Origin: Gammaproteobacteria bacterium | GTDB taxonomy: Bacteria; Pseudomonadota; Gammaproteobacteria; Pseudomonadales; Porticoccaceae | Length of the DNA stretch: 64,000 bases | Assembly: GCA_018069465.1 (NCBI GenBank) | Contig: JAGPUW010000010.1 | Coordinates: 62,001-126,000 of the forward strand | Direction of reading: 5' to 3' | Shown here: piece by piece, positions 17,117-32,989 of the stretch | How the letters are laid out: every line of letters begins with the position of its first letter | Numbering within the stretch: the first letter of the stretch is position 1 | The notes under the pieces: generated by a model | What the model saw: only the letters and a program-made list of their open reading frames with translations | Databases searched by the model: none | What the model was told of the DNA's origin: nothing | Program-made: the position numbers and the translations under genes

Positions 17117-17216
17117 CGAAACCACCTTGCGACGTACATAGGGCTTTGCGCTACATTTTGTTTTTCAATCTGCAAATTAAGTCAGAAAATTAAATAATTT
17201 CACAAACAGGTTAATT

Positions 17217-19019
17217 ATGTCAGTCCCTTTATTGAATGATCGCGATGTTGAGTTTTTACTTTATGAATTTCTCGATACGGAAAAATTACTTGAGCGACCG
17301 CGCTACAGTGAACACTCCCGTGAGATATTTGATGCCTCATTGCGCACTGCAAAAACCATTGCCGAAAAATACTTTGCCAATCATTTGGTAGAGGGCGACG
17401 AAAACGAACCGACTTTGGAAAATGGCATCGTGAAAATGATTCCCGAAACCAAAGTGGCCTGGGACGCATTTGCCAATGCCGGCTTTTTAGCAGCACATCA
17501 GGATTACGAAGAGGGCGGCATGCAAATGCCCGAAGTCATCTTTCGCATGGTGATGGCTTATGTCAACGCGGCGAATATAGGCACAGCAGCCTATCCTTTT
17601 GTGGCGACGGGCTCTGCTAATTTAATACGGGCCTTTGGCTCTGTGGAGCAAAAAGCCAAATTTTTAACGCTGATTATGGATGGCCGCAGCAATGGCACCA
17701 TGTGCCTCACAGAGCCGGGCCAGGGCTCGGCACTCGGCGATATTACCACCATGGCTGCGCCAGCTGATGACGGAACCTATCGAGTTTTTGGTCAAAAAAT
17801 GTTTATTTCCTGCGCCGACCACGATATCGCCGGTAATGTGATCCACATGGTGTTGGCAAAAATTAAGGGCGCTCCTCCCGGCGTTAAAGGCATTTCCCTA
17901 TTTATTGTGCCGAAGTTTTTGGTGAATGATGACGGCTCGCCCGGTGAGCGCAATGATGTCGTTGTCGCTGGCCTCAACCATAAAATGGGTTATCGCAATA
18001 CGACGAATGCCGCATTAAATTTTGGTGAAAAAGACGGCGCCATTGGCTACCTTGTTGGCGAGGCGAATAAAGGCCTTGGCTACATGTTTCAAATGATGAA
18101 TGAAGCGCGCATCGGGGTTGCCCTCGGCGCAGCGGCGATAGCCTATCAGGGCTTTAATCACTCGCTGGATTATGCGCGACAACGCCCACAGGGGCGTTTG
18201 GCCTCGTGCAAGGATCAACTGTCGCCACAGGTGATGCTAGTGGAACATGCCGATGTGCGGCGTTTACTGCTGGCACAAAAAGCCTATTCTGAAGGCTCTT
18301 TGGCCATGTGTCTGTTTGGTAGTAGCTTATTTGAAAACCAGAACAGCGCGCCAACCCAAGAGCTGCGAACGCGCAATACACAACTGTTAGATTTATTAAC
18401 CCCGGTGATTAAATCATGGCCATCAAAGTATGGCTGTATATCCAATGATATGGCGATACAGATACTGGGCGGTGCTGGTTACACCCGCGAATATCCGGTT
18501 GAGCAGCTCTATCGGGATCAGCGTTTAAATCCTATTCATGAAGGGGCTGAGGCCATTCATGGTCTCGATTTGCTGGGCCGTAAACTGAGTCTCTACGGTG
18601 GTGCTGGTTACCAATTCTTTAAAGAAGATGTGGCGCAAGATATTGCCAAGGCTAAAGATTTTGAGCCAATCAAAAACCTCGCAGGGAAGCTCGAAAATGC
18701 GATGGATGTATTGGAAAAAACAACACAATCATTGCAACAGCAAATGGGAGTAGATATAGACCGAGGCCTGGCGAACGCGACGGTCTACCTTGATATGTTT
18801 GGCCGTATTGTCGGCGCCTGGATATGGTTGAAGCAGGGAATAATTGCGGCAGAGGCCTTGAGCTCAAGCCTGCATGAAAGTGATGAACACTTTTATCGTG
18901 GCAAGTTGCAGGCGGCTAATTATTATATTGAATGGGAATTGCCAGCGATAGAGCAGTATGCCGAGTTATTGCAGGCGGGTAATAGCGTTCCCTTTGAAAT
19001 GCAAGATGAATGGTTTTAA
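17217..19019 (+). CDS. Acyl-CoA dehydrogenase, long (about 600-residue) type
   Basis: A 600-residue FAD enzyme that oxidises acyl-CoA to enoyl-CoA. The order is an N-terminal helical domain, the beta domain with MCLTEPGQGSALGDI, then the FAD/acyl-binding helices with NEARIGVALGAAAIAYQGFN and LGGAGYTREYPVEQLYRDQR. Glu442 in IHEGAEAIHGLDLLGRK is in the position of the catalytic base. A C-terminal extension of about 130 residues is typical of the 590-600-residue family that includes 3-methylmercaptopropionyl-CoA dehydrogenase (DmdC). A DmdC role is possible but not shown, since no DMSP genes are nearby. It pairs with the upstream ligase. Confidence 0.88.
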   Translation: MSVPLLNDRDVEFLLYEFLDTEKLLERPRYSEHSREIFDASLRTAKTIAEKYFANHLVEGDENEPTLENGIVKMIPETKVAWDAFANAGFLAAHQDYEEGGMQMPEVIFRMVMAYVNAANIGTAAYPFVATGSANLIRAFGSVEQKAKFLTLIMDGRSNGTMCLTEPGQGSALGDITTMAAPADDGTYRVFGQKMFISCADHDIAGNVIHMVLAKIKGAPPGVKGISLFIVPKFLVNDDGSPGERNDVVVAGLNHKMGYRNTTNAALNFGEKDGAIGYLVGEANKGLGYMFQMMNEARIGVALGAAAIAYQGFNHSLDYARQRPQGRLASCKDQLSPQVMLVEHADVRRLLLAQKAYSEGSLAMCLFGSSLFENQNSAPTQELRTRNTQLLDLLTPVIKSWPSKYGCISNDMAIQILGGAGYTREYPVEQLYRDQRLNPIHEGAEAIHGLDLLGRKLSLYGGAGYQFFKEDVAQDIAKAKDFEPIKNLAGKLENAMDVLEKTTQSLQQQMGVDIDRGLANATVYLDMFGRIVGAWIWLKQGIIAAEALSSSLHESDEHFYRGKLQAANYYIEWELPAIEQYAELLQAGNSVPFEMQDEWF

Positions 19020-19047
19020 ATAAGCTTAATTCGCCTCAGAACTAAGC

Positions 19048-19097
19048 CGATAATTCACGCCGCAAATAAAGACATTGATTAGCGGCGTGAATTATCG
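19048..19097. terminator. Perfect 16-bp inverted repeat between convergent genes
   Basis: CGATAATTCACGCCGC at 19048-19063 pairs exactly with the sequence at 19082-19097 across an 18-base loop. It lies between the acyl-CoA dehydrogenase end and the end of the kinase gene, and the right arm covers the last codons of the kinase. A stable hairpin forms on both strands, which fits a bidirectional terminator or transcript-end protector. There is no clear T-run. Confidence 0.55.
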
Positions 19098-22000
19098 GGA
19101 TCATTTGTTACGGGCTTGTCCCGTTGTTTTTTTCTGTGGGATTTCCCTCTGACCTTGAATTCATTCAAATAGCTTCGCTCGAACTCTTCTCTTGGCAGGG
19201 GGCGGCTGATGAAATAGCCCTGAATAGTATCGCAGCCCAGTTCATGAACAATGGTTTGCTGTTGTTCATTCTCTACACCCTCTGCGATCGTTTTCAGGCC
19301 AAGGCTATCAGCTAGCGCGATAATGCCTTTGACAATGGGTTTGTCATCGGGGTTGATTTCAATCTCTTTAATAAATGAGCGATCAATTTTTAATATATCG
19401 ACGGGCAGGTTTTTTAGATAATTAAGCGATGAATAGCCCGTGCCAAAATCATCAATGGCGAGTACAAAACCCATATCCTTAAGCGCGAGAAGCTCCTTTC
19501 TGCTTTTCTCGGGGTCATCCATTAGCATACTTTCAGTTAGCTCAAGCTCGATCAGTGCTGGTGAAACCCCGGTTTTTTCCAGCTGATAAGTGAGGAAATC
19601 AGATAAAGCGCCCGGTGTTTCGAGATCTTTGGCAGATAAATTGACAGATAATTTCACATCAAAGTGTTGTTTTTGCCATTCGGCGATTTGCTCGAAGGCG
19701 TGTCGAATCACCCAGAAAGTTAAATCTTTAATAAGTCCTGTTTCTTCCGCCAAAGGTATAAATTCCATCGGACTCATGAAGCCGTGTGTCGGGTGCTCCC
19801 AGCGGATGAGGGTTTCTGCGGCGGTAACCTTATTGGATTTCAGGTCGAACTGGGGTTGATAATAAAGCACCAGCTGTTCGTGGCTAATGGCATGGCGCAA
19901 TTCCTGCTCGAGCTCCAGACGTCGTGCAACTTTGTCTTCCATTCCCTGTTGGTAAAAGCTGTAATTATTGCGACTCTTTTTGGCACTGAACATGGCGAGA
20001 TCGGCGTGCTTGAGAAGAGCGTTAACATCGTCGCCATCATCGGGGTAAACGGATATGCCAACACTTGCCGTCACAAACATTTTTTGTTGAATAAAAACGA
20101 AGGGACTGCTTAGGGAGCTGCAAATATTTTGTGCAATGGTACTGATAGCCTCATCACCTTCAATATTTTCAAGAATAACTGTAAATTCATCTCCGCCCAG
20201 ACGGGCAACGAAATCGCTTTCTCGCACGGCACTTTGCAGGCGGTCAGCGACGGCCTTGAGTAATAAGTCGCCAATATTATGGCCAAGGGAATCATTAATA
20301 TTTTTAAAATGATCGAGGTCGAGAAATAATACGGCAAATTGCGAATTGTCGAGCTTTGCTCGGTTGAGGATTAAGCGCAGTTCCTGCATTAATTTACTAC
20401 GGTTTGGTAAGCCGGTGAGAGAGTCGTGATAGGCGAGTTCTTTGACGCGTTTTTCAACACGATTGGCTTGCAGCAGTCGAGAAACTCTTTCCTTCAGCAC
20501 GGTGAAATTTAAAGGCTTGGTGATGTAGTCGGTGGCACCAGCGGTAAAGGCTTTGTTAATCGCTTCGTTGTCCTCTAGAGAGGTGATCATCAAGATGGGT
20601 GTTTCACTAAAGCTTGGTAGGGCTCTGATGGTTTTACAGGCTTCGAAGCCATCCACCTCGGGCATGATGGCATCCATTAAAATAAGATCGGGGTTGTCCT
20701 GTTTACAGAAACTAATCGCTTGTTGGCCGTTGCGAGCCTCGAAAATAAGGAAGTTCTGCTCGGTAAAAATATTTTTTAAGGCGAGGCGGATAGTGCGATC
20801 GTCATCTACGATGAGTAATTTATGCTTGCGTTGGTGGATCTCTTCGGCGTTTGAAAGTGGGTTGAGGATCTTGTTTTCAATATCGCGCTTTAAAATGTCA
20901 AAATCATCGACGAGAGCTTCAATGTAAATGTCACATTGGTGTAATTGGTGATTGTTGGCAAGGTGTTCGATAATTCTCGCTGTTTCAAGAAAGTTGATAG
21001 CGCCAAAATTACTGGCACTACCTTTCAAGGTGTGGGCAAGTTCGCGAACATTTTTAGAGCTACCTCGTTGCAGCGCTTGTTTAAGAGAATCAATATAAAT
21101 GGGTGAGTCCTCTAGAAATGCTTCGAGCATTTTAATAACCACATCACCAATGCCTTCAAAGAGGTCTTCCATAACTTGGGGGTCGTAAGCTAAGACCTCG
21201 ATTTCTTCGGCTTTACGCACCTGTTCAGCAGCCGGTGCCTGCTCCTCTATTATGGCTTGGGAATCAGACATCCAGCTAATGAGTTCGTCGCGAAGTTTAT
21301 TGAGCCGTAAGGGTTTGCCAATGGTGCCATCCATACCAGCGAGCAGACATTTCTCTGCATCCTCGTCAGAAGTGTTTGCACTCATGGCAATTATCGGCAG
21401 ATATTTTTCACCCCCGCGCTTGCGAATTTCCCGCGTTGCCTCATAACCATCCATGACAGGCATATTGCAATCCATGAGAATAAGGTCGTAGTTTTTACGC
21501 AAGGACTTGCTCACGGCGTCCTGGCCGTTAATGGCTATATCCGATCGGTAGCCGAGTTTATTGAGCATTTCGCGTGCGACTTGCTGGTTAACTCTGTTGT
21601 CGTCAACAATGAGGACATATTGATTAATCTCTGTGCTTGATACCTTCTTTGTCGCACGTATTATCTGCTGCTGGGGACTGTCTGTTTGGGGATTGTTTTT
21701 TATATCAATAAGCTGCTCGAAAGAAGATCGCAGTAAGGGTTTTTCGATGCTTAAAAAACGGTGAGATTTTAGTTTAAGAGGCCTATAAGGGTTAATTAAA
21801 ATAGCAATAGTTGCACTTTGAGTGGCGGCGAGTTTTGATAGCAATGTGAGAAATTCATTTTCATGCAGGTAGTAAATCTCCTCGTCGACAACAATAAGTT
21901 CGAAATTTATGCCCGATTTCTCAAGGCGAGTAATTTCTAGTTGAGCGGCGCGTAGGCTTCCAGTAGTGATGCAAAGAAAATCATTTTTTTGTATAGCCAG

Positions 22001-23596
22001 TGTAGTAAAAAGCCTGACGATAACGCTGGAGGTGATGAGTAAGGCATGTCCTTGTTCATCGAGTGATAGCCCGGTATTGGCATCAGCTGCCGTCGTTATA
22101 TGTTCGACGGGAATGTTAAAGGTGAATGTTGAACCCTTTCCCGGCACGCTATGCAGGGCTATGGTGCCATTCATTAGTTCAATAATTTGTTTGCAAATTG
22201 TTAGCCCCAGGCCAGTGCCAGTGTAGGCTTTGGTGGTTGATGAGTCAGCCTGGGTAAAGGCATCAAAAATGCTCAGTTGGCTGTTTTCTTTAATACCAAT
22301 GCCGGTGTCGCGAATTTCAAATTCAATCTCTGGTTGGGGCCCGCGTTTGTAGCGTATGCGTAAAAACACTTCACCACTGTCGGTAAATTTAATCGCATTG
22401 CCAAGCAAGTTGATGAGCACCTGACGAACCTTGGTGGTATCGATGGATACAAGGTTTGATGCCGTATTGTCCTCTATGTCATAACCAAAATTGAGCTTTT
22501 TGCTCAGTGCCTGGGCAGAAAGGAGCTGAATAACTTCCTCAGCAAGATCGCGGATATCAACATCTTTCAGGTGGATGTCCATATTGCCCGATTCCATTTT
22601 TGAGAAATCGAGAATATCTTCAATCAATTCAAGCAGGTTTTCCCCCGAGTTTTTCGCAATGTCAATATACTCAGTCTGGCGAGTATTAAGGCGGGTTTCG
22701 CTGAGTAAATCCATCATGCCCAGGACTGCGTTGAGTGGGGTTCGCAATTCATGGGTGACGTTGGCGACAAATTCGCCTTTCACTCTGGCAGTTTCCAGGG
22801 CCTTGTCGTGTGCGCTTTGAAGTTCATCTTCTCTGCTCTCGATGCCATCCATCATCGCGTTGAAAGCGTGCTGCATTTTTGCAACATCGGGCTGGCCCTC
22901 GAGAGTGGCTCGAATAGCTGTATTGCCCTGTTCGGCCTGGCCCATTACCAGGGCGAGCTGTTCAACAGGCCTGGTAACGCGCCTGGATATGCGAAAGAGT
23001 GTAACGATAATTAAAATGGCAATCGCAAAAGTGACAATAAAGCTCGTTTGGTAAGTGCCCCGCTGCATTAAGTGTAAGGTTTTTTTACTCATCGACAGAG
23101 TAACGTAACCCAATAGTGTATCTACCTCTTGCGTGTCTTGATAAATATCGGTGAATTCTTCATCAAAACCGGCTTCTGAAAATACCGGTGCTGAAAAAAT
23201 CCATTCGCTTTCATCTTCGAAGACTTTAATCGCTGAACCGGTGTCGATGGTGGCTTCTGTAGTGTTCTTATGTATTTCTCGGGAGTTGTATAGCACTGTG
23301 CCATCGGCTGCTTGCAGCCGTATGACTTCTATGTCGGGAAAGCCCGCAATCGATTTGACGGCATCTTGAGCCGCGTATTCACTCATATACAGTAGGGCCA
23401 GTTTACTTTGGCTGGTAAATGTCTGGGTTATTTGCAGGCCCTGGGCGCGCATCTGTTGTTTTAAAATGTTGTTAGAGGTTCGACCTACGGCATAGGAGAC
23501 CAGAGTTGACATCAGGATGACTGCAATGGTGAAAATAATGATCAGCTGCTGACTGAACTGAAGGTTGAGGAGTTTTTTTCCAGTGTGCTTAAGCAT
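19079..23596 (-). CDS. Hybrid sensor kinase with receiver, Hpt, receiver, GGDEF and EAL domains
   Basis: A 1505-residue inner-membrane signalling protein. Domains in order: membrane helix (about 14-36); periplasmic sensor (about 37-180); second helix (about 183-203); HAMP; HisKA with His282 in NVTHELRTPLN; ATPase with Asn400 in GNAIKF; a degenerate receiver-like stretch (about 510-620); receiver with Asp709 (LILMDCNMP); Hpt with His855 (AHTLKGSASNF); receiver with Asp975 (LILMDAIMP); an intact GGDEF at 1134-1138; and an EAL-type domain with Glu1261 (ETLIRW) and DDFGTGYSS. It therefore joins a BarA-like phosphorelay to cyclic-di-GMP synthesis and breakdown in one chain. It ends the 11-kb minus-strand operon, 12 bases after the periplasmic binding protein that probably feeds its sensor. 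Confidence 0.93.
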   Translation of the reverse strand: MLKHTGKKLLNLQFSQQLIIIFTIAVILMSTLVSYAVGRTSNNILKQQMRAQGLQITQTFTSQSKLALLYMSEYAAQDAVKSIAGFPDIEVIRLQAADGTVLYNSREIHKNTTEATIDTGSAIKVFEDESEWIFSAPVFSEAGFDEEFTDIYQDTQEVDTLLGYVTLSMSKKTLHLMQRGTYQTSFIVTFAIAILIIVTLFRISRRVTRPVEQLALVMGQAEQGNTAIRATLEGQPDVAKMQHAFNAMMDGIESREDELQSAHDKALETARVKGEFVANVTHELRTPLNAVLGMMDLLSETRLNTRQTEYIDIAKNSGENLLELIEDILDFSKMESGNMDIHLKDVDIRDLAEEVIQLLSAQALSKKLNFGYDIEDNTASNLVSIDTTKVRQVLINLLGNAIKFTDSGEVFLRIRYKRGPQPEIEFEIRDTGIGIKENSQLSIFDAFTQADSSTTKAYTGTGLGLTICKQIIELMNGTIALHSVPGKGSTFTFNIPVEHITTAADANTGLSLDEQGHALLITSSVIVRLFTTLAIQKNDFLCITTGSLRAAQLEITRLEKSGINFELIVVDEEIYYLHENEFLTLLSKLAATQSATIAILINPYRPLKLKSHRFLSIEKPLLRSSFEQLIDIKNNPQTDSPQQQIIRATKKVSSTEINQYVLIVDDNRVNQQVAREMLNKLGYRSDIAINGQDAVSKSLRKNYDLILMDCNMPVMDGYEATREIRKRGGEKYLPIIAMSANTSDEDAEKCLLAGMDGTIGKPLRLNKLRDELISWMSDSQAIIEEQAPAAEQVRKAEEIEVLAYDPQVMEDLFEGIGDVVIKMLEAFLEDSPIYIDSLKQALQRGSSKNVRELAHTLKGSASNFGAINFLETARIIEHLANNHQLHQCDIYIEALVDDFDILKRDIENKILNPLSNAEEIHQRKHKLLIVDDDRTIRLALKNIFTEQNFLIFEARNGQQAISFCKQDNPDLILMDAIMPEVDGFEACKTIRALPSFSETPILMITSLEDNEAINKAFTAGATDYITKPLNFTVLKERVSRLLQANRVEKRVKELAYHDSLTGLPNRSKLMQELRLILNRAKLDNSQFAVLFLDLDHFKNINDSLGHNIGDLLLKAVADRLQSAVRESDFVARLGGDEFTVILENIEGDEAISTIAQNICSSLSSPFVFIQQKMFVTASVGISVYPDDGDDVNALLKHADLAMFSAKKSRNNYSFYQQGMEDKVARRLELEQELRHAISHEQLVLYYQPQFDLKSNKVTAAETLIRWEHPTHGFMSPMEFIPLAEETGLIKDLTFWVIRHAFEQIAEWQKQHFDVKLSVNLSAKDLETPGALSDFLTYQLEKTGVSPALIELELTESMLMDDPEKSRKELLALKDMGFVLAIDDFGTGYSSLNYLKNLPVDILKIDRSFIKEIEINPDDKPIVKGIIALADSLGLKTIAEGVENEQQQTIVHELGCDTIQGYFISRPLPREEFERSYLNEFKVRGKSHRKKQRDKPVTNDPDNSRR

Positions 23597-23608
23597 TTGT
23601 CACAAGCC

Positions 23609-24559
23609 CTACAGTAGCCGGTGGATTTTTAATCCACTGATATTATTGGGCATGATGCCGAGGTGTTTGCTGGTGCGCTTGTTGACAATAAGGTGAACAC
23701 TCCTGAGAGGTGTTAAGCCAGTATTGGGTGCAATTAGCTCTTGCCCCTGGGCAATTTTCGCTAAGGTGCGGCCCATTTTTTCATTATCGGGATAGAGGGA
23801 GAACAGCGCACCGCGTTTTACATGGCTGGGGTTGGAAGAAAAAACGACAATTTTTTTCTTCCAGGCAGCTTCCAGAATTAGCATGAGTATACTGGGATCA
23901 CTGAGGCTGGCGCCACGCTTCAGCCAAATCGCATCTTTGGCTGAAGCGCGATGGATTATTTTCAGGTATTTATTGGCCGCTTCCTGGACGGATGTAACTT
24001 CTTCGACCTCTAAGGCTTTGCCACGTTCGGACAGGTAGGTTTCAGCGCTATTGAGTTGTGCTAAGTGTTCAAGGTCGGTAACGACGAAAACACGTTGCAC
24101 GAAAGGAGCAATCGTTAGCAAGTGAGATAAAATAACTTCGGCGTCGGGAATCATTGACACTCCCGATACGGCATCTTTTGTTGTTGTTACGGCACCCGCT
24201 ACGATAGGAATAGAAGATTCTAGCTGACGAACTTTTTCAAGGGAGCGCTTGCCCAGTGTCAGCAGTACATCTGGCTGGTGTTGCTCGATTCTTTCTGCCA
24301 GCACATTGCGTTCACTATTTGTCAGCAGTTCTAGCTCCTGGCTTGTACCCGGATAGCTTTCATTTATGCCCTTAATAATATCCTGATATATTTTGTTATA
24401 GGGGGCTTTGACTTTAGGGTAGATAATAAGCAGCCCAGAGGACAAGGCATTGCAGGGCAAAAATAATTGCCCAAACAGCAATAGGGGCAGCAACAATAAG
24501 CGCACCCGCTGAAAGCTTGTTAATTTGCTTGTATACAAAAAATGCATAGGTATCCGCAT
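23609..24559 (-). CDS. Periplasmic ABC-type substrate-binding protein without transporter
   Basis: A 316-residue exported protein of the PF04392-type ABC substrate-binding family. An N-terminal signal peptide is clear (RLLLLPLLLFGQLFLPCNALS, residues about 20-40), although the true start could be the second Met (24547). The mature part shows alternating alpha/beta segments such as VLLTLGKRSLEKV, SIPIVAGAVTT and VVFSSNPSHVKRGALFSLYPD. No permease or ATPase gene is anywhere in the window. The gene lies 21 bases after the receptor gene and 12 before the hybrid kinase. The arrangement suggests a ligand-binding partner of the kinase rather than a transport component, which is inference from context. 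The ligand is unknown. Confidence 0.82.
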   Translation of the reverse strand: MRIPMHFLYTSKLTSFQRVRLLLLPLLLFGQLFLPCNALSSGLLIIYPKVKAPYNKIYQDIIKGINESYPGTSQELELLTNSERNVLAERIEQHQPDVLLTLGKRSLEKVRQLESSIPIVAGAVTTTKDAVSGVSMIPDAEVILSHLLTIAPFVQRVFVVTDLEHLAQLNSAETYLSERGKALEVEEVTSVQEAANKYLKIIHRASAKDAIWLKRGASLSDPSILMLILEAAWKKKIVVFSSNPSHVKRGALFSLYPDNEKMGRTLAKIAQGQELIAPNTGLTPLRSVHLIVNKRTSKHLGIMPNNISGLKIHRLL

Positions 24560-24580
24560 AAAATATTTAGGTTTTGTCTT

Positions 24581-26695
24581 TTAAAGCTTGTAGCGGATTT
24601 CGCCAAATATACGGCGCCGGTCCAGTGGTAAATCGTCGGTGATGGCGGGCACGGGTTGGCCATTGAGACTGGGTTCGCGAGCGTCATCATTAAAAAGATT
24701 TTTCGTGATGAGCGATAACTCTAGCTGATCGGTTAAAAATGACTTACGCAGGGTGAAATCGACAGTGGTGTAATCATCGATATCTTGGCGGGGGTCATCA
24801 AATGTACGGTTCCTGCTCATGACTCTATTGGCCTGCAGGCTTATATTCCAGCCCTGTGGCAGGGATGTATTGGCGCGGATATAAAATTGTTGCTCCGGTG
24901 CATTTGCGGCATCGGCATTCGTTAGCTCGTCCTCTGACTTTTGCCAGGAGTAGTTGCTCAGCACGGACAGGTAGTCATTCACCTGCCATGACGCTTCCAG
25001 CTCAAGGCCGTGCCCCTCTTGCTCGCCGGCATTCTGTGCTGTGTGGGTGCCGCTACCTCCGGTGGTGGGGATAAAGTGAATAATATCCTTCCAGTAATAT
25101 TGGAACAGGTTGAGGTCGATGGTCAGGTCGTAGGTGGGCTTGTAATTAAAAGCCAGCTCGTAACTTTTTAGAGTTTCTGGCTTCAGGTCAGGGTTGCCAA
25201 GAAATGCCGGGTTAGCCTGTTCTCCAGTTTCTGCAAATGAGGGTGCTCTAAAAGCTTCTCCGTACAGTGCTTTGACCGTTAGGTTGTGCCGTGCCGACCA
25301 GACGAGTGCTGCCCGAGGGTTGGCGGTGTCGCCAAAATCTGAATAGTGGTCAAAGCGTAGGCCTGCAGTAAATTCCCAGTCATCTGCAAGATGCCAGACA
25401 TCTTGAACGAAGGCATAGCTATTTTCGCGCTCGTTTTCATTGAGGAAAATAAAGGGCGTGTCGGAAACGTCGACTAGAGGACTACCGGGAAATATGGGGA
25501 GGCCGGTGGCTGGGTCAATTCCAAAATTCTTCTCTTCTTCTACCTTGTAGATTTCACCAAAATAATAGCCTACACCGGCCATGAGCTCATGTCGCTCAAT
25601 GCCGCGAAATGTACTTGTTAGACTAGCCCGATAGTGGTGTTCATAGATTTCAGGGTTGCCAATAATTCCATCGGGATAGGGAATGGGATTAAGGGGTGAG
25701 CCAGTGGTCCCAGGCGGAAGTAGTATGAAATCGTCGGCTACTTCCTGGCTGGTTTGCAAATAGCTGATGTTGGCTTTAATGCCTGTATTTGGGGTTAAAT
25801 TGATCTTCTCGTAGGTGATGTCGGCATTATAACGTTTGCTAGCGGCTTGCCCGCTGGGGTCCAGGGCTCGAGCAATGCCGGCACCGAGACCTTCGTTGTT
25901 TCTTATTTGACTACCGGCACGAAAGGTGAGGTCCTTATAAGTCAGCTCTAGTCTGGTATCGAAGGCCTCGCCTTCTTGATTAATACTGCCAGGTGCCAGT
26001 GATGCGTTTGTTCCAGAAAGAAAGTCCAACACTGATTGGGAATCTGAATTTATTTTTTCACTGCTACCGTCAGTTTTACGGCCTTCAATAATAGCCATAT
26101 AAGCAAGCTCACCGATTGCCCCTCCCGTTTGCAGCCAGAAGTTCTTGCTGTTTGAGGTTCCGTAACGCAGACCAACTGAGGTGCCGTTAACTTCTGACGA
26201 AGATTGGGTAATTATATTAATAACACCCGCGAAAGCATCGGCACCGTAGATAGCTGAACCTGGACCGCGAATAATTTCAATTCGAGAAATTGCTTCGACA
26301 GGCATGCCGCCCCAGACTAAGTTTCTGTCGCCATGAAAAAGGTTAGTCAGAGGAATACCGTTAATCAGCATTAGTACTTGTGGATTGGCGGTGGTATGAA
26401 TACCTCTAAAGCTGTAGATCGGGCTATAGCCTATATTTCTTGAAACGTGCAAACCGGGCACAGTTTCTAAAATCTCATCGATATCCGTTGCGCCGATTTG
26501 AGAAATTTCTTGTGCGGTAATGACGGACGCGACGGCAGGTGCTTTAGACAGGGGCTGGGTGAGGCCTGTTGCGATGCTGATAAATTCCTCATCACCAAAA
26601 AAATCGGCGAGCTCCCTTTCATCCTCGGCTTTTGCTATGAGAGGTTGTAGCAGAGAGAGTGATAGGAGAAAGGGTAAATAGTGTTTAGTAAGCAT
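24581..26695 (-). CDS. TonB-dependent outer-membrane receptor
   Basis: A 704-residue receptor with a signal peptide (residues 1-23, ending AKAED). The plug domain covers about 45-165, with SVITAQEISQIGATDIDEIL, VPGLHVSRNIGYSPIYSFRG, INGIPLT and IEIIRGPGSAIYGADAFAGV. A 22-strand-type barrel follows, ending RRRIFGEIRYKL with a terminal hydrophobic residue. It imports an unidentified ligand using TonB energy. The barrel resembles the vitamin B12/siderophore group only in general form. No Fur box or B12 riboswitch is visible upstream, because the gene starts 2 bases after the preceding enzyme gene. It is thus tied by operon structure to the upstream metabolic genes. Confidence 0.92.
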   Translation of the reverse strand: MLTKHYLPFLLSLSLLQPLIAKAEDERELADFFGDEEFISIATGLTQPLSKAPAVASVITAQEISQIGATDIDEILETVPGLHVSRNIGYSPIYSFRGIHTTANPQVLMLINGIPLTNLFHGDRNLVWGGMPVEAISRIEIIRGPGSAIYGADAFAGVINIITQSSSEVNGTSVGLRYGTSNSKNFWLQTGGAIGELAYMAIIEGRKTDGSSEKINSDSQSVLDFLSGTNASLAPGSINQEGEAFDTRLELTYKDLTFRAGSQIRNNEGLGAGIARALDPSGQAASKRYNADITYEKINLTPNTGIKANISYLQTSQEVADDFILLPPGTTGSPLNPIPYPDGIIGNPEIYEHHYRASLTSTFRGIERHELMAGVGYYFGEIYKVEEEKNFGIDPATGLPIFPGSPLVDVSDTPFIFLNENERENSYAFVQDVWHLADDWEFTAGLRFDHYSDFGDTANPRAALVWSARHNLTVKALYGEAFRAPSFAETGEQANPAFLGNPDLKPETLKSYELAFNYKPTYDLTIDLNLFQYYWKDIIHFIPTTGGSGTHTAQNAGEQEGHGLELEASWQVNDYLSVLSNYSWQKSEDELTNADAANAPEQQFYIRANTSLPQGWNISLQANRVMSRNRTFDDPRQDIDDYTTVDFTLRKSFLTDQLELSLITKNLFNDDAREPSLNGQPVPAITDDLPLDRRRIFGEIRYKL

Positions 26696-26697
26696 AT

Positions 26698-27528
26698 TTA
26701 GTTTGCCCAGGTTCGATTGGCAGTGGCCGTTGAGTTAATCCGATCAACAGCCAAAGGGTAGAACGTTCCTTCAGGTTTATTTTTTGCGTCTAAATGGCAG
26801 GGGAGTATCCCACCAATAAATGCCAGGGTATTTGTGTAATAGTATTCATCGACCGTCACGCCGAGATCTGCGGCGGTAGCTGCGGAGATAGCGGCAATAT
26901 TCATCCGGTATTTATAGCGTGAGCCCTTCAAATAATTTTCTATTTCAAAGGCCAGTTTTAGAAAGTCACCGTCGTCAGCTTCAATTGTAGACAAGAATCG
27001 TAAGGCGGGAGCTATACGTTCATCGACATTCGTTAAAGGCCTGCCATAACCACTGATACAGCGATTAGCTTTCAGCTCTTCTTTTACGATGGCTTCAATC
27101 GAAATACCGGTGCTCTTCTTTTCTACGGCGCGGTAGAGGAAGTCGAGAGCGCCTATGATCGGTTTTAGACCATAAATGGTCGCCTCTGAAGCGGCAATTC
27201 CGGCAGATAATGCCAGGGCCCCCGTCGATCGAGAGGTGCCCGCAAGGGCGGCGATGCGATTATTCCAAAGCCTTGGGTCGGGGTAGCTAGTGCTCAGCAG
27301 CGATAAGCCTTCAATAATTTTTGCCAGCTTGGGGTTCTTCTTCCCGGTTACGGCATAAACGATGTATTCCATCCAGCTGCAATCATTTAGCTCGGTAAAA
27401 ACATCCTTGCCCCGCAATACCACCCGCTCACCCGGAAACCAGGCACCCATTGCGGTTTGCCAGTTATCTTCGTAGGCCTTAAGTAGTTCGGGGCCTGTGA
27501 GGGTGTTTGTCTCTTGCTCAGTCATCAT
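26698..27528 (-). CDS. Degenerate citrate synthase/citryl-CoA lyase family protein (second of pair)
   Basis: A 276-residue protein with the citrate synthase/citryl-CoA lyase fold pattern, best seen by alignment with the neighbouring gene: SYPDPRLWNNR here against NPGPRDHSVR there. The Asp-His pair is replaced by Leu-Trp (88-89). The GxGHR catalytic motif appears as GYGRPL (160-165), with His changed to Arg. TVDEYYY near residue 226 may hold the third catalytic acid. It is much shorter than citrate synthase (370-430 residues). It overlaps the upstream paralogue by 11 bases, which suggests coupled synthesis of a two-subunit protein. The reaction is unknown: a Claisen-type lyase or synthase is possible, and a regulatory subunit cannot be excluded. 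Confidence 0.7.
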   Translation of the reverse strand: MMTEQETNTLTGPELLKAYEDNWQTAMGAWFPGERVVLRGKDVFTELNDCSWMEYIVYAVTGKKNPKLAKIIEGLSLLSTSYPDPRLWNNRIAALAGTSRSTGALALSAGIAASEATIYGLKPIIGALDFLYRAVEKKSTGISIEAIVKEELKANRCISGYGRPLTNVDERIAPALRFLSTIEADDGDFLKLAFEIENYLKGSRYKYRMNIAAISAATAADLGVTVDEYYYTNTLAFIGGILPCHLDAKNKPEGTFYPLAVDRINSTATANRTWAN

Positions 27529-28345
27529 TTTTTACCGGGCCGGGATCATCTGTCAGGGTAAGGCCATCGCCGAAAAAGGGGTAGCGATTCCATCCCATTT
27601 TCTCTTGCTCCAGAGCGTGAACAGCTGCACCGGGTAGTCGCAGTAACAGAAAAAGTATTTCAGCCTCTTCGGGTTGGAAGCCGAGGGCAAACAGGGTTGC
27701 CGCTGCGACGCCCGAAAATGCCAGAGGCGATGCGGCGTGATGTTCAAGTGTTTGGCGCTGTGCCTGTAACCAAACCAGTGTTTCGCTGTGTTCGATGGCG
27801 GTGAGGTGGTCGAGCACTTGCTTAACGGGAGTCGGGCAACTGGCGCCGTTGGGGTCGAAGCCGGGCGTATGTTCCATTTCTGGCCATACATCGGCGCGCT
27901 CTTCGCGGGGCGGGTTGTTGATGATGTCGATCCAGCTCTCGAGGTCGGTGCCGCATTGTTGCCAATACTGCATAGCGGTAAAGACTTCGCGGGCACCACC
28001 AAGGTTGCCGGCGCCAATGGAAATGGCGGCGATTAGGGCGGAGGCTCGGGTAGAGCCACCGACACCGGCATTCATAGCACCGCGAACACTGTGGTCTCTG
28101 GGGCCGGGATTGGCCAGAGCGACGGCCAATCCCTCTAACATACGGGCCTGTGCTTTGCTGGGTGGGTCGAGTTTAAATAGCAGCCATATATATTCGATCA
28201 GGCTGATTTTACCGAGTAAATCTCCGTAGACATCGAAGCCCGCGCAATAGCTTTTTGCCGCGGCAAAAGGGTTGTCGGGCTCTGCTTCTTCGCGCCATAT
28301 TTTGGTGGTGATTTGCTCGCGTTCTTTTTCACTGTTGTCTGTCAT
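27518..28345 (-). CDS. Citryl-CoA lyase-like protein (first of pair)
   Basis: A 275-residue member of the citrate synthase/citryl-CoA lyase family. PGPRDHSVRGAMNAGVGGSTR (82-100) matches the ADHG-type segment, with Asp84-His85 kept. IGAGNLGGAREVF (111-122) matches the FGGA segment of the citryl-CoA lyase part of ATP citrate lyase. The second catalytic motif (GxGHRV) is not found. The stretch around GFDPNG looks like a loose equivalent. FSGVAAATLFALGF follows the family's last conserved helix, but with Leu where the catalytic Asp is expected. The start overlaps the ThDP enzyme stop (ATGA). Together with the next gene it probably forms a heteromeric enzyme of unknown substrate. Confidence 0.72.
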   Translation of the reverse strand: MTDNSEKEREQITTKIWREEAEPDNPFAAAKSYCAGFDVYGDLLGKISLIEYIWLLFKLDPPSKAQARMLEGLAVALANPGPRDHSVRGAMNAGVGGSTRASALIAAISIGAGNLGGAREVFTAMQYWQQCGTDLESWIDIINNPPREERADVWPEMEHTPGFDPNGASCPTPVKQVLDHLTAIEHSETLVWLQAQRQTLEHHAASPLAFSGVAAATLFALGFQPEEAEILFLLLRLPGAAVHALEQEKMGWNRYPFFGDGLTLTDDPGPVKNDD

Positions 28346-30126
28346 GTGTTTTGTTTCAGTGCCTTGGTTCGCATACCGATGGGGGGGGCTTCACTCTGAT
28401 CGATGCGTACGTCGAGCAGGGTTGGCCCCCTTTTTTTGAAAAAGGCCTGACAGTCAAGTTTCAGTAACTCTTCGGCAGAATGAATAATGTGGCCTTCAAC
28501 GCCCATGGCTTCGGCGAAAGCCGCGAAGTTGGTCATTGGCAGACTAAAGGCAATTTCTTCGGCGCCGGTCATCCGCTGGCCGTGTTTGACCATGCCGTAG
28601 GCGCTGTCATTGAGCACTACAAACACCACGGGGAGCTTTTCTTCCACGGCGACCGTTATTTCCTGGCCGTTCATTAACAGGCTGCCGTCTCCGGTAATAC
28701 ACACCACGGGTTTGTCGGGGCGGGCCAGGGCCGTGCCAATGGCGCTGCCAATGGCCCAGCCCATGGCGGCAAAGTTGAGTGTGGCGCGAAACAGGCCGCC
28801 CTTGGCATCGCGACGCCCAGAGACGCGCCGGTCATGGGGGTGTAAATAGTGAGTTGCCCACGAAAAACTGGCGCCGACGTCGGCTAAGTAGTGGGTATTT
28901 GCAGGGAAGATATTGGCGAGTTCTCGCATCAGGCGTTGGGGCTTGATGGGGCTGGCGTCGCTGCGAAACTTATCTTCATCGTCCAGAGTAAACTGCCTTA
29001 GAGGTTCTTCGTTACTGGCTGCAGGTTCCTCAGAATCATTTGGCACAAAGGCTTTGTCAAAGCCCTGAGTGGCGAAGCGCTTGAGCACGGCTTCGAAAAT
29101 ACTCTCCAGGCGACCCCTGACATGGAGGGTTGCCATCAGGGTTTTGGTGAGGTTCGATTCGCTGGCCTCAATGTCGATAATGCGCTGTTGATGTTGCTCT
29201 GGCTCCCAGCCCTGGCTGGCCCATTCACTGAGCTGCGCACCGATAATAAAGATGCGGTCAATCTCGGGGTCGGTGAGCAGTTGTTGTGCACTTTGGTGTC
29301 CAGAGAAACCGATAACACCGCGAAATAAGGGGTGGTAGGGGCTAACTAAACCCTTGCCGTGGGGGGTGACGACCAGTTGTGCATTGAGGCCCAGGGCCAG
29401 GTTGAGGATCAGGCCGATAGCCTCCCCGGCACCATCGCCAATCACAAATAAGGGGTTTTTGGCGAGTTTGAGTTCGCTGTAGAGTCGCCCGACAGCGTCG
29501 CTGTCAAACAATGCCGGTTTACGCAGCAGGTCGGGTAAATCGACTCGGGGCAGCGGGTGGCTGGGGGTAGCGCGCATGACGTCGACGGGGATGCTCAAGT
29601 GCACCGGGCCCATGGGCTCGGCAAAGGCGGTCATAATCGCAGTGGTGAGTTTGTGTTCGAATTGGGCCGGGTGTGAAACCAGGGTGCTATAGCGACAGCA
29701 GTGGTTGAACAGTTCAACCGTATTCACGCCAGTACAGGAGGATTCCTGGAAAGCTCCCTTGCCAAAGCTCGACAGCGCTGTCTGGGCGGTAATCACCAGC
29801 ATAGGCACATTATTTTCGTAGGCCGAAGCGACGCCAGTGATCAGGTTAGTTGCCCCGGGACCGGTGGTGGCGCAGCAGACACCGAGCTTGCCGGAATTGC
29901 GCCAGTAACCATCGGCCATAAAGGCCGAGCCGGCCTCGTGGCGAGCGGTAATAGAGCGGGGTCCGCCGCGACGCTCGCTGCGGGCCAGAGCGTTGTAAAA
30001 CGGCTCAATAGCACCACCAGGGATGCCAAAAACATATTCCACGCCCAGTTGCTCCAGGTAGCTGAGCAGTAAATCTCCATATTCGTGTGGTGCAGTTCCC
30101 TCTGCCTGTACTTCATAGGCAGGCAT
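28342..30126 (-). CDS. ThDP-dependent acetolactate-synthase-like enzyme
   Basis: A 594-residue enzyme with the three-domain layout of the acetolactate synthase/benzoylformate decarboxylase group. Glu64 in TARHEAGSAFMADGY is the cofactor-activating acid. GDGSLLMNGQE at 479-489, with a later NDSAYG, is the ThDP-Mg motif. A central domain with VTPHGKGLVSPYHPLFRGV lies between. A catalytically competent ThDP enzyme is therefore likely, decarboxylating or ligating a 2-oxoacid. It is not clearly IlvB, since no small subunit gene (ilvN/ilvH) is nearby, and it does not resemble sulfoacetaldehyde acetyltransferase at its N-terminus. It is the first gene of the six-gene minus-strand operon, and AGGA lies upstream of the ATG. 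Confidence 0.85.
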   Translation of the reverse strand: MPAYEVQAEGTAPHEYGDLLLSYLEQLGVEYVFGIPGGAIEPFYNALARSERRGGPRSITARHEAGSAFMADGYWRNSGKLGVCCATTGPGATNLITGVASAYENNVPMLVITAQTALSSFGKGAFQESSCTGVNTVELFNHCCRYSTLVSHPAQFEHKLTTAIMTAFAEPMGPVHLSIPVDVMRATPSHPLPRVDLPDLLRKPALFDSDAVGRLYSELKLAKNPLFVIGDGAGEAIGLILNLALGLNAQLVVTPHGKGLVSPYHPLFRGVIGFSGHQSAQQLLTDPEIDRIFIIGAQLSEWASQGWEPEQHQQRIIDIEASESNLTKTLMATLHVRGRLESIFEAVLKRFATQGFDKAFVPNDSEEPAASNEEPLRQFTLDDEDKFRSDASPIKPQRLMRELANIFPANTHYLADVGASFSWATHYLHPHDRRVSGRRDAKGGLFRATLNFAAMGWAIGSAIGTALARPDKPVVCITGDGSLLMNGQEITVAVEEKLPVVFVVLNDSAYGMVKHGQRMTGAEEIAFSLPMTNFAAFAEAMGVEGHIIHSAEELLKLDCQAFFKKRGPTLLDVRIDQSEAPPIGMRTKALKQNT

Positions 30127-30180
30127 AAGTTAAATCCTATTGAATATCAATATGTTAAAGACTGTATTTAAATCGGAACG

Positions 30181-30210
30181 ATAGTATCGGCAGTTGCCAA
30201 TAAATTGCAA
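30181..30210 (-). promoter_or_regulatory. Candidate promoter of the ThDP enzyme operon
   Basis: Read on the minus strand, TTGCAA (30210-30205) and TACTAT (30186-30181) are separated by 18 bases, a fair sigma-70 match. Transcription would start near 30174 and leave a leader of about 48 bases before the ATG at 30126. The same divergent gap must hold the aminotransferase promoter. A short hairpin (CACGC-GCAA-GCGTG) at 30284-30297 lies in that gene's leader. Confidence 0.4.
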
Positions 30211-30325
30211 GATCAATAATGGGATGTATTCGGTAGAATGGCGGATTTTAAGCCTACCACTGGCGTGCTAGCGCTGGGGCCGACACGCGCAAGCGTGGAT
30301 CATGAACAACGTAGAGGAAGACAAT

Positions 30326-31651
30326 ATGACAGAGTCAGATATGAATTTAGAAAACTGGTGGCAGCCCTTTACCAACGTCAGAGGTTTTCGGGCCAATCCG
30401 CGCCTTATTGAGCGCGCAGAGGGTTGTTTTCTCTACACCGCCGATGGCCGCGATGTGCTCGATATCACCGCCGGTCTGTGGTGTGCCAACCTCGGCCACA
30501 GCCGCAAAGAAGTGGCCGATGCGGTGCATAAGCAGTTAATGGATATGGACTTTTGCCCGCCCTTCCAGTTTGGCTCGCCGGTAACCTTTCGCTTTGCCGA
30601 GAAATTGGTGGAATACGCACCAAAGGGTTTGAATCGAGTGTTCTTCACCAACTCGGGTTCCGAGTCGGTCGAGACCGCCATGAAAATTGCCCATCGCTAT
30701 CAACTGGCGCGTGGCAAGGCCAGTAAAACCCGCTTTATCTCCCGCGAGCGGGGCTATCACGGGATTAATATTGGCGGCACTTCTTTGCAGGGTATTCCCA
30801 ATAACCGCAAGGGCTTTCCGACGCTGGATAATGTCGATTTTCTGCCCGACTTACTCGATATCCCCAACAATGCCTTTAGCCGAGGCCTGCCCGAAAACGG
30901 CGTCGATAAGCTCGATGCCCTGGAAAAAATCATCGCCACTCGCGGTGCAGAGAACATCTGCGCGCTGATTATCGAGCCCATCGTCGGTGCCGGAGGCATG
31001 GTGCCACCGCCCAAAGGCTATCTCGAGCGCGCCCGACAGGTTTGTGATGACAATGACATTTTGCTGATTTTCGACGAAGTTGTTACCGGTTACGGCCGTA
31101 CTGGCTCCGCTTTTGCGGCTGTTGAGTTTGGCGTAACACCGGATTTGATGACCACCGCAAAAGCGATTAATGGTGGCACGGTGCCCATGGGCGGAGTGTT
31201 TATTAAAGAAGAAATCCAGCAGACAATTTTTGATGCCGCGCCAACCGGCATGCCGGAAATCTTCCACGGCAATACCTATGCGGGTTCACCCGTGGCCGCA
31301 GCGGCGGGTCTGGCAGCCTTTGAAATTTACGAGCGTGAAGGCCTGCTAACCCGCGCCTCCGGGCCTATCGGCCAGTACTGGGAAGATGCCCTGCACAGCC
31401 TGCGGGACATTCCCCATATTATTGATATCCGCAATTACGGTTTGCTGGGTGCCATCACCTTTGCGCCGAATGCGGCTAAATACCCCACGGGTGTCGGCGT
31501 GCCTGTGCACAATAAGTGCTTTGAAAATGGCCTCTTGTGCCGCGCTGTCGCCGACAACATGGTGATGTCCCCACCGCTGACGATTAGCGAAGCGGAAATT
31601 GATCTGTTTATCGAGCGCCTGCGTCAATCCATTGCCGATGTGCTGGGCTGA
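30326..31651 (+). CDS. Class III (omega-amino acid:pyruvate type) aminotransferase
   Basis: A 441-residue PLP enzyme of the beta-alanine/omega-amino acid:pyruvate transaminase group. The N-terminus WWQPFTNVRGFRANPRLIE, then FFTNSGSESVETAMKIA (PLP phosphate site), LLIFDEVVTGYGRTG and the cofactor Lys279 in TTAKAINGGTVPMGG are all family landmarks. I start at the ATG at 30326, because GAGGA lies seven bases upstream. The ATG at 30302 has none. It is divergent from the ThDP/citryl-lyase operon and separated by a 200-base gap. It may supply or remove a 2-oxoacid or semialdehyde for that pathway, which is inference. The amino donor cannot be told from the sequence. Confidence 0.87.
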   Translation: MTESDMNLENWWQPFTNVRGFRANPRLIERAEGCFLYTADGRDVLDITAGLWCANLGHSRKEVADAVHKQLMDMDFCPPFQFGSPVTFRFAEKLVEYAPKGLNRVFFTNSGSESVETAMKIAHRYQLARGKASKTRFISRERGYHGINIGGTSLQGIPNNRKGFPTLDNVDFLPDLLDIPNNAFSRGLPENGVDKLDALEKIIATRGAENICALIIEPIVGAGGMVPPPKGYLERARQVCDDNDILLIFDEVVTGYGRTGSAFAAVEFGVTPDLMTTAKAINGGTVPMGGVFIKEEIQQTIFDAAPTGMPEIFHGNTYAGSPVAAAAGLAAFEIYEREGLLTRASGPIGQYWEDALHSLRDIPHIIDIRNYGLLGAITFAPNAAKYPTGVGVPVHNKCFENGLLCRAVADNMVMSPPLTISEAEIDLFIERLRQSIADVLG

Positions 31652-31706
31652 TTGAGCTTCACTTTGAGGGCGGCAGCTTATTGTTTCGCTCTCATACAAC
31701 TTGAGG

Positions 31707-31860
31707 CTTTTGCACGGGAGATGATTTTGATTTCAGGCACCAAAAGTAGGCGCTCTTAGGCGAGGCAAAAAAGCGCGCAGAGAGGGAATTTACAGGTGTA
31801 AATGACCGATTGAGCACTTTTTTAACGCAGCATGGGAGCAAAATGGCTCTCGTGCAAAGG
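31707..31860. repeat. Intergenic repeat, long copy, with imperfect terminal inverted repeats
   Basis: Positions 31738-31859 share two blocks with 40242-40300: CACCAAAAGTAGGCGCT (exact) and a 35-base block at 31825-31859 (34 of 35 identical). Here the blocks are separated by about 60 extra bases. The copy is bounded by CTTTTGCACGGGAG (31707) and the complement of CTCTCGTGCAAAGG (ending 31860), which match at 12 of 14 positions. It fills the gap between the aminotransferase and E2 genes. No protein is encoded. A small non-autonomous mobile element or REP-like sequence is possible. Confidence 0.65.
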
Positions 31861-31867
31861 TCTCTAC

Positions 31868-32989
31868 TTAGCCCTCAAGGCTGTCTTTTAAGGCCGCCAT
31901 AAAGCGTGCCGCTTCACCGCCAGTAATCAGGCGGTGGTCAAAACTCAGCGACAGCGGCATTACCGGCACTACTTTGGCCTTGCCGTCGACGGCGCAGACC
32001 TCGTCGCGAATCGCACCGGCGGCGAGGATGGCCACGGTGGGCAGGACGATCACCGGGTTGGCATAGCGCCCGGCAATAGTGCCGAAATTACTTAATGAGA
32101 TGGTTGGTTTCTGCATTTCGCTGATGGGAATACGGCGTTTTAGTGCGTCTTTTTTTAGGCGGTTGAGGCCGGTGCGCAGGTTTTTGTCGCTGCGATTGGC
32201 GACGTCGCGCAACACTGGCACAAACAACCCGCCGGGAGTATCGACGGCGATGCCGATGTCGATGGTCTCCATCGTACGGTAGGTCATCGCCTCGGCGTCG
32301 AACCAGCTATTGAGCAGGGGTTCGGCCTGGCAGGCGGCGACCATAGCGTGCAATAGCCGCACGGTGGCATCTTCCTTTTTCGACCACTTTGTTAAGCGCG
32401 CATCGTCATTGATGGTGACCGGCACCACCTGCGCGTGGGACTGAGACATCGCCAGCGACATAAAGCGGCGCACCCCCTTGAGCGGTGTCGAGGGACCTTT
32501 TTCACTCTCAAGCCGGGCGACCCGTTCGACATCTTCGACTTTAATCAGCCCCTGTTTGCCGCTGCCAGTGACTTTGCCAATATCGACCTGCAAGCGTTCG
32601 GCGAGGGCGCGAATCCCCGGTGTCGCCCGAATAGCCTGGCGTTGGCCGGGAGCGGCGGGCGAGCCAATAAAAAAATCCTGGTCTGCTTGTTGATCTTTCT
32701 GCTGGCCATCGCTGGTGGTTTTTAGTTCGCCGACCACGGTGGCGCTATCACTTTCATCGCTGACAAATTCCAGCAGGGGCTCGCCGAGATGGACGATATC
32801 GCCCGCTGCGCCAAAGGTCGCGACAATCACGCCGGTCTGGGGGGAGGGGATTTCCACCACCGCTTTGGCGGTTTCCACGGTGACCAGCAATTGATCGATA
32901 TTGACTGTATCGCCAGCTTTGATGCTCCACTCGACAATTTCGGCCTCTTGTAAACCCTCGCCGAGATCGGGCAGCTTAAAGAACTTCAT
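31868..32989 (-). CDS. bkdB: Branched-chain 2-oxoacid dehydrogenase E2 (dihydrolipoamide acyltransferase)
   Basis: A 373-residue E2 core enzyme. The lipoyl domain covers about 1-78, with the lipoylated Lys42 in VTVETAKAVVEIPSPQ. A linker follows, then the peripheral subunit-binding domain (about 120-160, RATPGIRALAERLQVDIGKVTGSG). The acyltransferase domain has SLSNFGTIAGRYANPVI and the catalytic His in LSFDHRLITGGEAARFM. It transfers the acyl group from E1 to CoA. It is the last gene of a four-gene operon with E1 beta, E1 alpha and an amino acid dehydrogenase, and no E3 gene is present here. Specificity for branched-chain acids is inferred from the dehydrogenase partner. Confidence 0.88.
   Translation of the reverse strand: MKFFKLPDLGEGLQEAEIVEWSIKAGDTVNIDQLLVTVETAKAVVEIPSPQTGVIVATFGAAGDIVHLGEPLLEFVSDESDSATVVGELKTTSDGQQKDQQADQDFFIGSPAAPGQRQAIRATPGIRALAERLQVDIGKVTGSGKQGLIKVEDVERVARLESEKGPSTPLKGVRRFMSLAMSQSHAQVVPVTINDDARLTKWSKKEDATVRLLHAMVAACQAEPLLNSWFDAEAMTYRTMETIDIGIAVDTPGGLFVPVLRDVANRSDKNLRTGLNRLKKDALKRRIPISEMQKPTISLSNFGTIAGRYANPVIVLPTVAILAAGAIRDEVCAVDGKAKVVPVMPLSLSFDHRLITGGEAARFMAALKDSLEG

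Follow-up and report, generated by a model that had tools for sequence, protein, structure and literature searches.

What might a bacterium gain from placing a thiamine diphosphate (ThDP)-dependent enzyme and two proteins resembling citryl-CoA lyase (CCL1 and CCL2) in one operon with a TonB-dependent receptor, a periplasmic binding protein and a hybrid histidine kinase? Such a locus (Table 1) lies in a stretch of 64,000 nt, here called the window, on contig JAGPUW010000010.1 of a gammaproteobacterium of the family Porticoccaceae (GCA_018069465.1), a draft genome of 3.6 Mb in 49 contigs. All six minus-strand open reading frames (ORFs) that an earlier note had listed from the letters of this DNA were confirmed in position, and so were their tight junctions: counted from the ThDP gene, two overlaps of 4 and 11 bases are followed by gaps of 2, 21 and 12 bases. 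Our analysis indicates that the operon is probably a make-and-sense cassette, i.e., one for the biosynthesis plus reception of a small molecule that most likely serves as a signal between cells, where the product, its secretion and the ligand are what we infer. The gene-level evidence for such a cassette is strong. It consists of a conserved gene set, intact motifs in the ThDP enzyme and in the relay and GGDEF domains of the kinase, the loss of residues in the CCL pair, the replacement of that pair by a non-homologous enzyme, the tailoring genes of some loci, and near-constant signalling neighbours.

The six-gene block is a real evolutionary unit. Its relatives came from 390 genomes of the order, 60 of which had matches in a CCL1 search at E ≤ 0.001 (the weak end includes ordinary citrate-synthase relatives, e.g., L068 and L069), from a GTDB genome scan with a CCL2 alignment, which gave 362 relatives (the best 80 were kept), and from evenly drawn samples of 369 genomes of the class and 299 of the phylum, with CCL2 at E ≤ 1e-10 in 45 and 16, a few weak matches included. 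Regions of up to 20 kb were taken from the order set (38 places) and from the class and phylum sets (56 places). Loci with a strong CCL match and at least 7.5 kb on either side were counted as full-context loci (98 loci, the sets overlapping), and the presence of a family was called by six-frame searches with six profiles built from loci of the same study. All six families were found in 43 of 44 GTDB loci, 17 of 23 order loci and 22 of 31 class and phylum loci; the last figure is the less biased one, since the GTDB loci were the best matches of their scan. Dereplication at 70% CCL2 identity reduced 97 loci to 64 (L046, which has no CCL2, was left out). All six families occurred together in 52 of these 64, and singly the ThDP enzyme in 61, CCL1 in 63, CCL2 in 64, the receptor in 59, the binding protein in 52 and the kinase in 57. 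Enzyme and sensing genes are thus not regularly apart in homologous genomes, and the earlier view of the six genes as one functional unit is supported.

As a control, the six families and 567 flanking ORFs were clustered under one BLAST rule. The six families then reached 52–64 of the 64 loci, and any other neighbour family at most eight. Among the flanking families, ten recurrent ones of the main set and a few further ones, locus by locus, were annotated; short-chain dehydrogenase/reductase (SDR) enzymes were the commonest, and others were CheR, an E2 subunit, cyclophilin, SpoU, PdxJ, an ABC-F-like ATPase and DUF1249. Gene order varied, with 31 gene strings over the 64 loci (some due to extra or split matches) and the order of the window in 22. 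A set that stays constant while its order is shuffled argues more strongly for a shared function than a fixed order would. At the genome level, after the weak CCL2 matches G073 and G742 had been dropped, 40 of the 369 class genomes contained both CCL2 and the ThDP enzyme, three CCL2 only, eight the ThDP enzyme only and 318 neither (Fisher's exact test, p = 7e-42). Chance adjacency was rejected on the strength of the neighbour control and this co-occurrence. CCL2 is therefore present in 43 of 369 sampled genomes of the class, and the cassette exists in some sister classes as well. Among the best 80 of the 362 CCL2 relatives are Methylococcaceae, Gallionella, Thiogranum, Cycloclasticus and Porticoccus, which have no common diet.

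Several loci illustrate how the unit changes or disappears. In L046 (9494–10399) the CCL1 frame runs into the tail of an EAL domain, and everything from CCL2 through most of the kinase is gone, as if the cassette had been lost by one deletion, or as an assembly artefact would appear. L229, from a single-contig genome of 3.4 Mb, is a cassette in decay: receptor, CCL2 and ThDP gene are each in pieces, and CCL1 and the binding protein are one open frame each. In another single-contig genome (L227 and L278), CCL1 and the start of CCL2 lie at one place and the remainder of CCL2 about 0.5 Mb off, so that the operon seems to have been split by a rearrangement within CCL2. At L129, further kinase, binding-protein and receptor genes adjoin the cassette on the opposite strand.

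Table 1. Features of the operon and its upstream region (window coordinates)
Feature	Position	Strand	Basis
ThDP-dependent carboligase, 594 aa; probable first synthetic step	28342..30126	-	TPP_enzyme N/M/C; conserved motifs
CCL1, citrate-synthase/citryl-CoA-lyase-fold protein, 275 aa, canonical catalytic residues absent; proposed half of an acyl-thioester condensing heteromer	27518..28345	-	6hxp profile match
CCL2, second citrate-synthase-fold protein, 276 aa, GxGH changed to GxGR; proposed other half of the heteromer	26698..27528	-	Profile and AlphaFold model
TonB-dependent outer-membrane receptor, 704 aa	24581..26695	-	PF00593 and PF07715 (barrel and plug)
Periplasmic type-I binding protein, ABC_sub_bind (PF04392), 316 aa, hydrophobic N-terminal stretch	23609..24559	-	Pfam
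Hybrid histidine kinase, sCache_4-HAMP-HisKA-HATPase-REC-Hpt-REC-GGDEF-EAL, 1505 aa	19079..23596	-	Pfam
Intergenic region upstream of the operon, common to a divergent aminotransferase gene; presumed promoter	30127..30301	.	Coordinates

The first enzyme has the features of a ThDP-dependent carboligase of the acetolactate synthase fold: three TPP domains, and a catalytic Glu motif (RHE) and cofactor motif (GDG...ND) that are at least 90% conserved in 134 aligned sequences. Its closest solved chains are BbmA (8x3x, 2e-88) and CsmA (8x3z, 3e-78), with acetolactate synthase 6lpi behind (1e-58). Exact-word matching of names and PDB codes in open-access PubMed Central (PMC) text returned no published function for BbmA or CsmA, which are presumably α-hydroxy-β-keto acid synthases. 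Against the curated model TIGR00118 for biosynthetic acetolactate synthase, the enzyme scored 297 bits, below the cut-off of 538. A role in the synthesis of acetolactate or branched-chain amino acids was rejected because a clear acetolactate synthase (830 bits) is encoded elsewhere in the genome, which also holds two citrate synthases.

CCL1 and CCL2 have no Pfam match and fall far below the cut-offs of the NCBIfam citryl-CoA lyase models (PRK06224; 52 vs 261 bits and 32 vs 245 bits). Profile matches to the citryl-CoA lyase 6hxp (7e-17 for CCL2, 8e-25 for CCL1) and an AlphaFold model of CCL2 (mean predicted local distance difference test score, pLDDT, 73.6; best PDB match again 6hxp, E = 2.4e-07) establish the citrate-synthase fold, for CCL1 by profile and for CCL2 by profile and model. 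We compared the catalytic positions in 156 CCL1, 161 CCL2 and eight control homologues, the rows not being dereplicated. The His of GxGH was kept in one CCL1, in no CCL2 and in all eight controls, with Arg in its place in all 161 CCL2 rows; the His of HGG was kept in 16 CCL1, no CCL2 and four controls, and the Asp of NxD in neither protein and in four controls. By this residue test a citryl-CoA lyase function of the pair was rejected. The pair that the earlier note described as citryl-CoA-lyase-like thus has the fold of citrate synthase and lacks its catalytic residues.

The proteins of the cassette differ in how far they have diverged. Between the window and six near relatives, identities were 78–90% for the ThDP enzyme and 75–89% for CCL1, and went down to 53–79% for CCL2 and 60–82% for the binding protein; in some pairs, e.g., L072–L073 and L071–L081, the kinases are close (89%) and the enzymes more distant. 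L074 and L081 are 57–59% identical to the window in CCL2 and 86–89% in ThDP enzyme and CCL1, and the receptor of L074 differs most from that of the window at the N terminus and around alignment columns 160–280. As far as such comparisons can tell, this pattern points to recombination within the cassette and to rapid change of those parts that could set specificity.

What the pair might do is indicated by loci in which other enzymes take its place; loci without CCL genes were found through a receptor search in the order and a ThDP search in the class. L245, from a single-contig genome of the same family as the window, contains the ThDP enzyme, receptor, binding protein and kinase together with a 316-aa enzyme of the ketoacyl-acyl carrier protein (ACP) synthase III (KASIII) type instead of the pair. 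Its ThDP enzyme is sister to that of the pair-bearing L040 (support 100/96), and since it nests in this way inside the CCL-bearing clade, the KASIII state is probably derived. L267, from another family, has the same arrangement of ThDP enzyme, KASIII, receptor, binding protein and kinase, and its ThDP enzyme sits on a long branch elsewhere in the tree. The two KASIII proteins are 32% identical, with Cys, His and Asn, which we take to be the KASIII triad, aligned in both. In L266 (single contig) a methyltransferase stands in the place of the pair, between ThDP enzyme and receptor, binding protein and kinase. In carbazole biosynthesis (PMC7466098), the product of a ThDP enzyme is condensed decarboxylatively with acyl-ACP by a KASIII-type enzyme (CqsB3/CqsB1).

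Some blocks contain tailoring genes within or at the edge: an SDR in L044, L106, L144, L213 and L214; an O-methyltransferase in L132, L133 and, by similarity and on the kinase strand, L216; a sulfotransferase in L066 and, by similarity, L065; and a carbamoyltransferase in L106 and in L131 and L045, the last two apparently one contig. Such enzymes modify hydroxyl or keto groups; they fit a biosynthetic product, not a degradation route. A neighbour of 1726 aa in L044 had no Pfam match. KASIII and SDR matches in L274 were set aside as an apparent housekeeping run, presumably plsX-fabH-fabD-fabG.

On the other side of the cassette, the domains of receptor, periplasmic protein and kinase support the chain of import and sensing with cyclic di-GMP (c-di-GMP) output that had been predicted for them. 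The last member, named a cyclic-di-GMP kinase in the earlier note, is more correctly a hybrid histidine kinase whose output domains are GGDEF and EAL. Among 64 full-length kinases including that of the window, the HisKA His and the first REC Asp are kept in all, the second REC Asp in 61, GGDEF in 62 (GGDEY in two) and DDFG in all; ETL replaces EAL in the window and in eight kinases in all. The model of the binding protein (mean pLDDT 88.8) best matches 3lkv, 3lft (with bound L-Trp) and 6hni in the PDB, with LuxP–LuxQ at rank 48.

Putative synthase genes are linked to a sensor here, as in autoinducer systems: next to the 52 complete loci stands the finding that in 61 of 64 loci the nearest edge of a signalling gene lies within 1.5 kb of the enzyme/receptor block (in seven, one lies at 1.5–3 kb). 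Even among the 12 loci missing at least one of the six families, nine have a signalling gene within 1.5 kb. Most loci use the hybrid kinase with the PF04392 protein as sensor. In L057 and L059 kinase and GGDEF-EAL are two genes, and elsewhere the sensor is of another kind: YfiR with CHASE8-GGDEF-EAL (L209), a PAS/GAF kinase (L223), a chemoreceptor of the methyl-accepting chemotaxis protein (MCP) type (L195) or, in another class, a Ser/Thr kinase-AAA-GAF-HisKA_3 protein with a LuxR-type response regulator (L233). In L247 receptor, binding protein and kinase are present and the enzymes are absent within its 20 kb. In L060 and L062 CCL2 is convergent with a gene like the chemoreceptor of the window (29% and 28% over 235 residues), the end of which is about 10 bases away, and neither kinase nor binding protein is near.

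Taken as a make-and-sense cassette, the operon could work as follows. The ThDP enzyme would join a 2-oxo acid either to a second one or to an acyl donor, giving an acyloin or α-hydroxy-β-keto acid. A CCL1/CCL2 heteromer would condense this product with a thioester of CoA or ACP, and decarboxylation would supply the nucleophile. If the pair does the job of KASIII in this way, a base would not be needed, and the loss of the classical base residues would be expected. In some lineages the product may then be reduced, O-methylated, sulfated or carbamoylated. The product would leave the cell, re-enter through the TonB receptor and be captured by the periplasmic PF04392 protein, which in its bound form may act on the sCache-HAMP kinase, whose HisKA-REC-Hpt-REC relay would set GGDEF and EAL and thereby c-di-GMP. 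An arrow from enzymes to product to receptor is the more likely direction. There is about an even chance that the cassette represents an undescribed class of chemical signalling, with a hydroxyketone-type signal made by the ThDP enzyme and a repurposed pair (or KASIII), decorated by lineage, and received via TonB receptor, periplasmic protein and a hybrid kinase that sets c-di-GMP. The citrate-synthase-fold pair would then be a new type of decarboxylative condensing enzyme without the classical residues.

A number of observations weigh against a make-and-sense cassette. Tailoring genes are a minority, at 14 of 194 census loci in one similarity scan, a count that includes the KASIII of L245, an opposite-strand SDR beside L123, and both L045 and L131. 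Since the controls keep the second and third catalytic positions in four of eight cases only, residue loss is firm for GxGH alone. No signalling gene was found within 1.5 kb in L044, L198 and the split operon L227, and of the six families the binding protein is missing most often. L198, L223, L233 and L234 are without receptor and binding protein, and reception through a TonB receptor is therefore not universal. L209, L213 and L222 have no ThDP gene nearby (their genomes carry one elsewhere), and in five other genomes, G463, G590, G591, G592 and G593 (the last at a contig edge), which have a ThDP match and no CCL2 match, the neighbours show no cassette, and none is seen at the ThDP loci without CCL2 (L268–L272). 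An exporter was not identified. TonB receptors for signals are unusual.

This last point leads to the alternative that the enzymes make a small chelator, which the cell releases and takes back, metal-bound, through the receptor, with periplasmic protein and kinase reporting its return. Metal chelates usually enter through TonB receptors, so that a metallophore would explain the receptor, hydroxy-keto acids can chelate, and a gene for a TonB-family protein is present in the window (826–1710, minus strand, about 23 kb from the receptor gene and adjoining glutathione synthetase). The best Fur-box-like match upstream of the operon (30127..30301) has 13 of 19 positions, equalled by 23 of 500 shuffles, and even such a weak site leaves room for iron. 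Set against this, the six genes include no ABC permease, permeases elsewhere in the genome not having been searched for, no further family exceeds eight of 64 loci, and none of the ten annotated recurrent neighbour families is a permease or reductase for metals. In addition, the binding protein belongs to PF04392 and is closest to binders of aromatic amino acids, and sensors without a receptor also accompany the enzymes. We consider a metallophore-type system unlikely.

Even less probable is the interpretation of the earlier note, according to which the cell imports and senses a nutrient from its surroundings and degrades it with the three enzymes, c-di-GMP control being attached. A chain of uptake and sensing can indeed consist of receptor, binding protein and kinase, and the flanks in the window hold catabolic genes (aminotransferase, amino-acid dehydrogenase and E1/E2 subunits); however, aminotransferase and dehydrogenase are retained mainly in the nearest relatives. 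The CCL pair has lost the catalytic residues of citrate synthase and lyase, its replacement by KASIII or a methyltransferase and the tailoring genes point to synthesis, no seventh family above eight of 64 loci offers a regular catabolic or transport partner, and the host lineages share no diet. The idea that a secreted natural product, e.g., an inhibitor or redox mediator, is sensed by its own producer for feedback and not for signalling between cells is to be rated just as low. Tailoring genes of these kinds are typically found with natural products, and feedback sensing predicts identical gene content, but the neighbour families include no regular resistance or export partner, and many lineages carry this compact cassette.

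Promoter-like sites did not exceed those in shuffled sequence (18 vs 13.8, standard deviation 4.1), and a known riboswitch leader was rejected, as positions 18000–37000 gave no Rfam match. Next to the presumed promoter, the window holds an AptA-like omega-aminotransferase, E1/E2 oxo-acid dehydrogenase subunits and a ScyB-like amino-acid dehydrogenase (30302–36498), which accompany the cassette mainly in the nearest relatives and are a possible source of 2-oxo acid. On the other side (15497–19019, plus strand) lie a CoA ligase, scoring 783 bits against the cut-off of 822 of the model for 3-(methylthio)propionyl-CoA ligase, and a 600-aa acyl-CoA dehydrogenase, possibly the dimethylsulfoniopropionate demethylation genes dmdB and dmdC. 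A chemosensory cluster (3667–14306, plus strand) comprises CheW, MCP, CheR, a 1913-aa CheA hybrid and CheB; an MCP family and a CheR family also recur near the cassette in seven of the 64 loci (L106, L121, L124, L189, L192, L195, L204).

If the signalling interpretation is true, roughly one in ten sampled genomes of the class (the 43 of 369 with CCL2) would carry an unread chemical language, extending to methanotrophs, iron and sulfur oxidisers and hydrocarbon degraders, in most cases with c-di-GMP output. ThDP chemistry would join signal synthesis, TonB receptors would join signal reception, and the citrate-synthase fold would gain a new reaction. The fast divergence of CCL2 and binding protein and the mosaic of enzyme and sensor alleles among near relatives would then mark private dialects.

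The earlier note knew of no named pathway with this combination, and word matches in open-access PMC text likewise returned no description of the gene combination or of ThDP-made hydroxyketone signals. Tundrenone was discarded as a relative: in a word search of PMC6977074, acetolactate, citrate synthase, TonB and thiamine were all absent. By fold and Pfam, the cassette shares with the autoinducer-2 system LuxP–LuxQ a type-I periplasmic binding protein and a hybrid histidine kinase, whereas its synthase would be a ThDP enzyme with a citrate-synthase-fold pair, its binder is a PF04392 protein, a TonB receptor is added and GGDEF-EAL is part of the kinase itself. The diffusible signal factor system (RpfF-RpfC-RpfG) similarly combines a synthase gene beside an Hpt hybrid kinase with c-di-GMP output, but it relies on a crotonase and HD-GYP instead of ThDP enzyme, pair and GGDEF-EAL, and a periplasmic binder and a TonB receptor are present here. 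Alpha-hydroxyketone signalling (CqsA/CqsS, LqsA/LqsS) would be similar in chemistry if the product is of acyloin type, and its synthase is linked to a kinase as well; that synthase depends on pyridoxal phosphate, unlike the ThDP-dependent enzyme here, and reception here would proceed via outer membrane and periplasm.

The carbazole pathway (PMC7466098) has the succession of ThDP carboligase and KASIII-type condensation by CqsB3/CqsB1 that is paired in L245 and L267, but yields an actinomycete natural product, whereas here receptor and kinase are attached and the place of KASIII is usually held by the citrate-synthase-fold pair. Among solved structures BbmA and CsmA remain the nearest to the ThDP enzyme; citryl-CoA lyase and citrate synthase share the fold of CCL1 and CCL2 and differ in the GxGH His, absent from 155 of 156 CCL1 and all 161 CCL2 rows. 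The cassette is classed neither as a citryl-CoA lyase system, given the outcome of the residue test, nor as a member of LuxPQ or Rpf. To judge from its gene content, it appears to work like the latter two in linking a synthase, a kinase and, in most loci, c-di-GMP domains. In kind, it is a signal-synthase/sensor operon that, to our knowledge, differs from the known ones in synthase, receptor route and binding-protein family.

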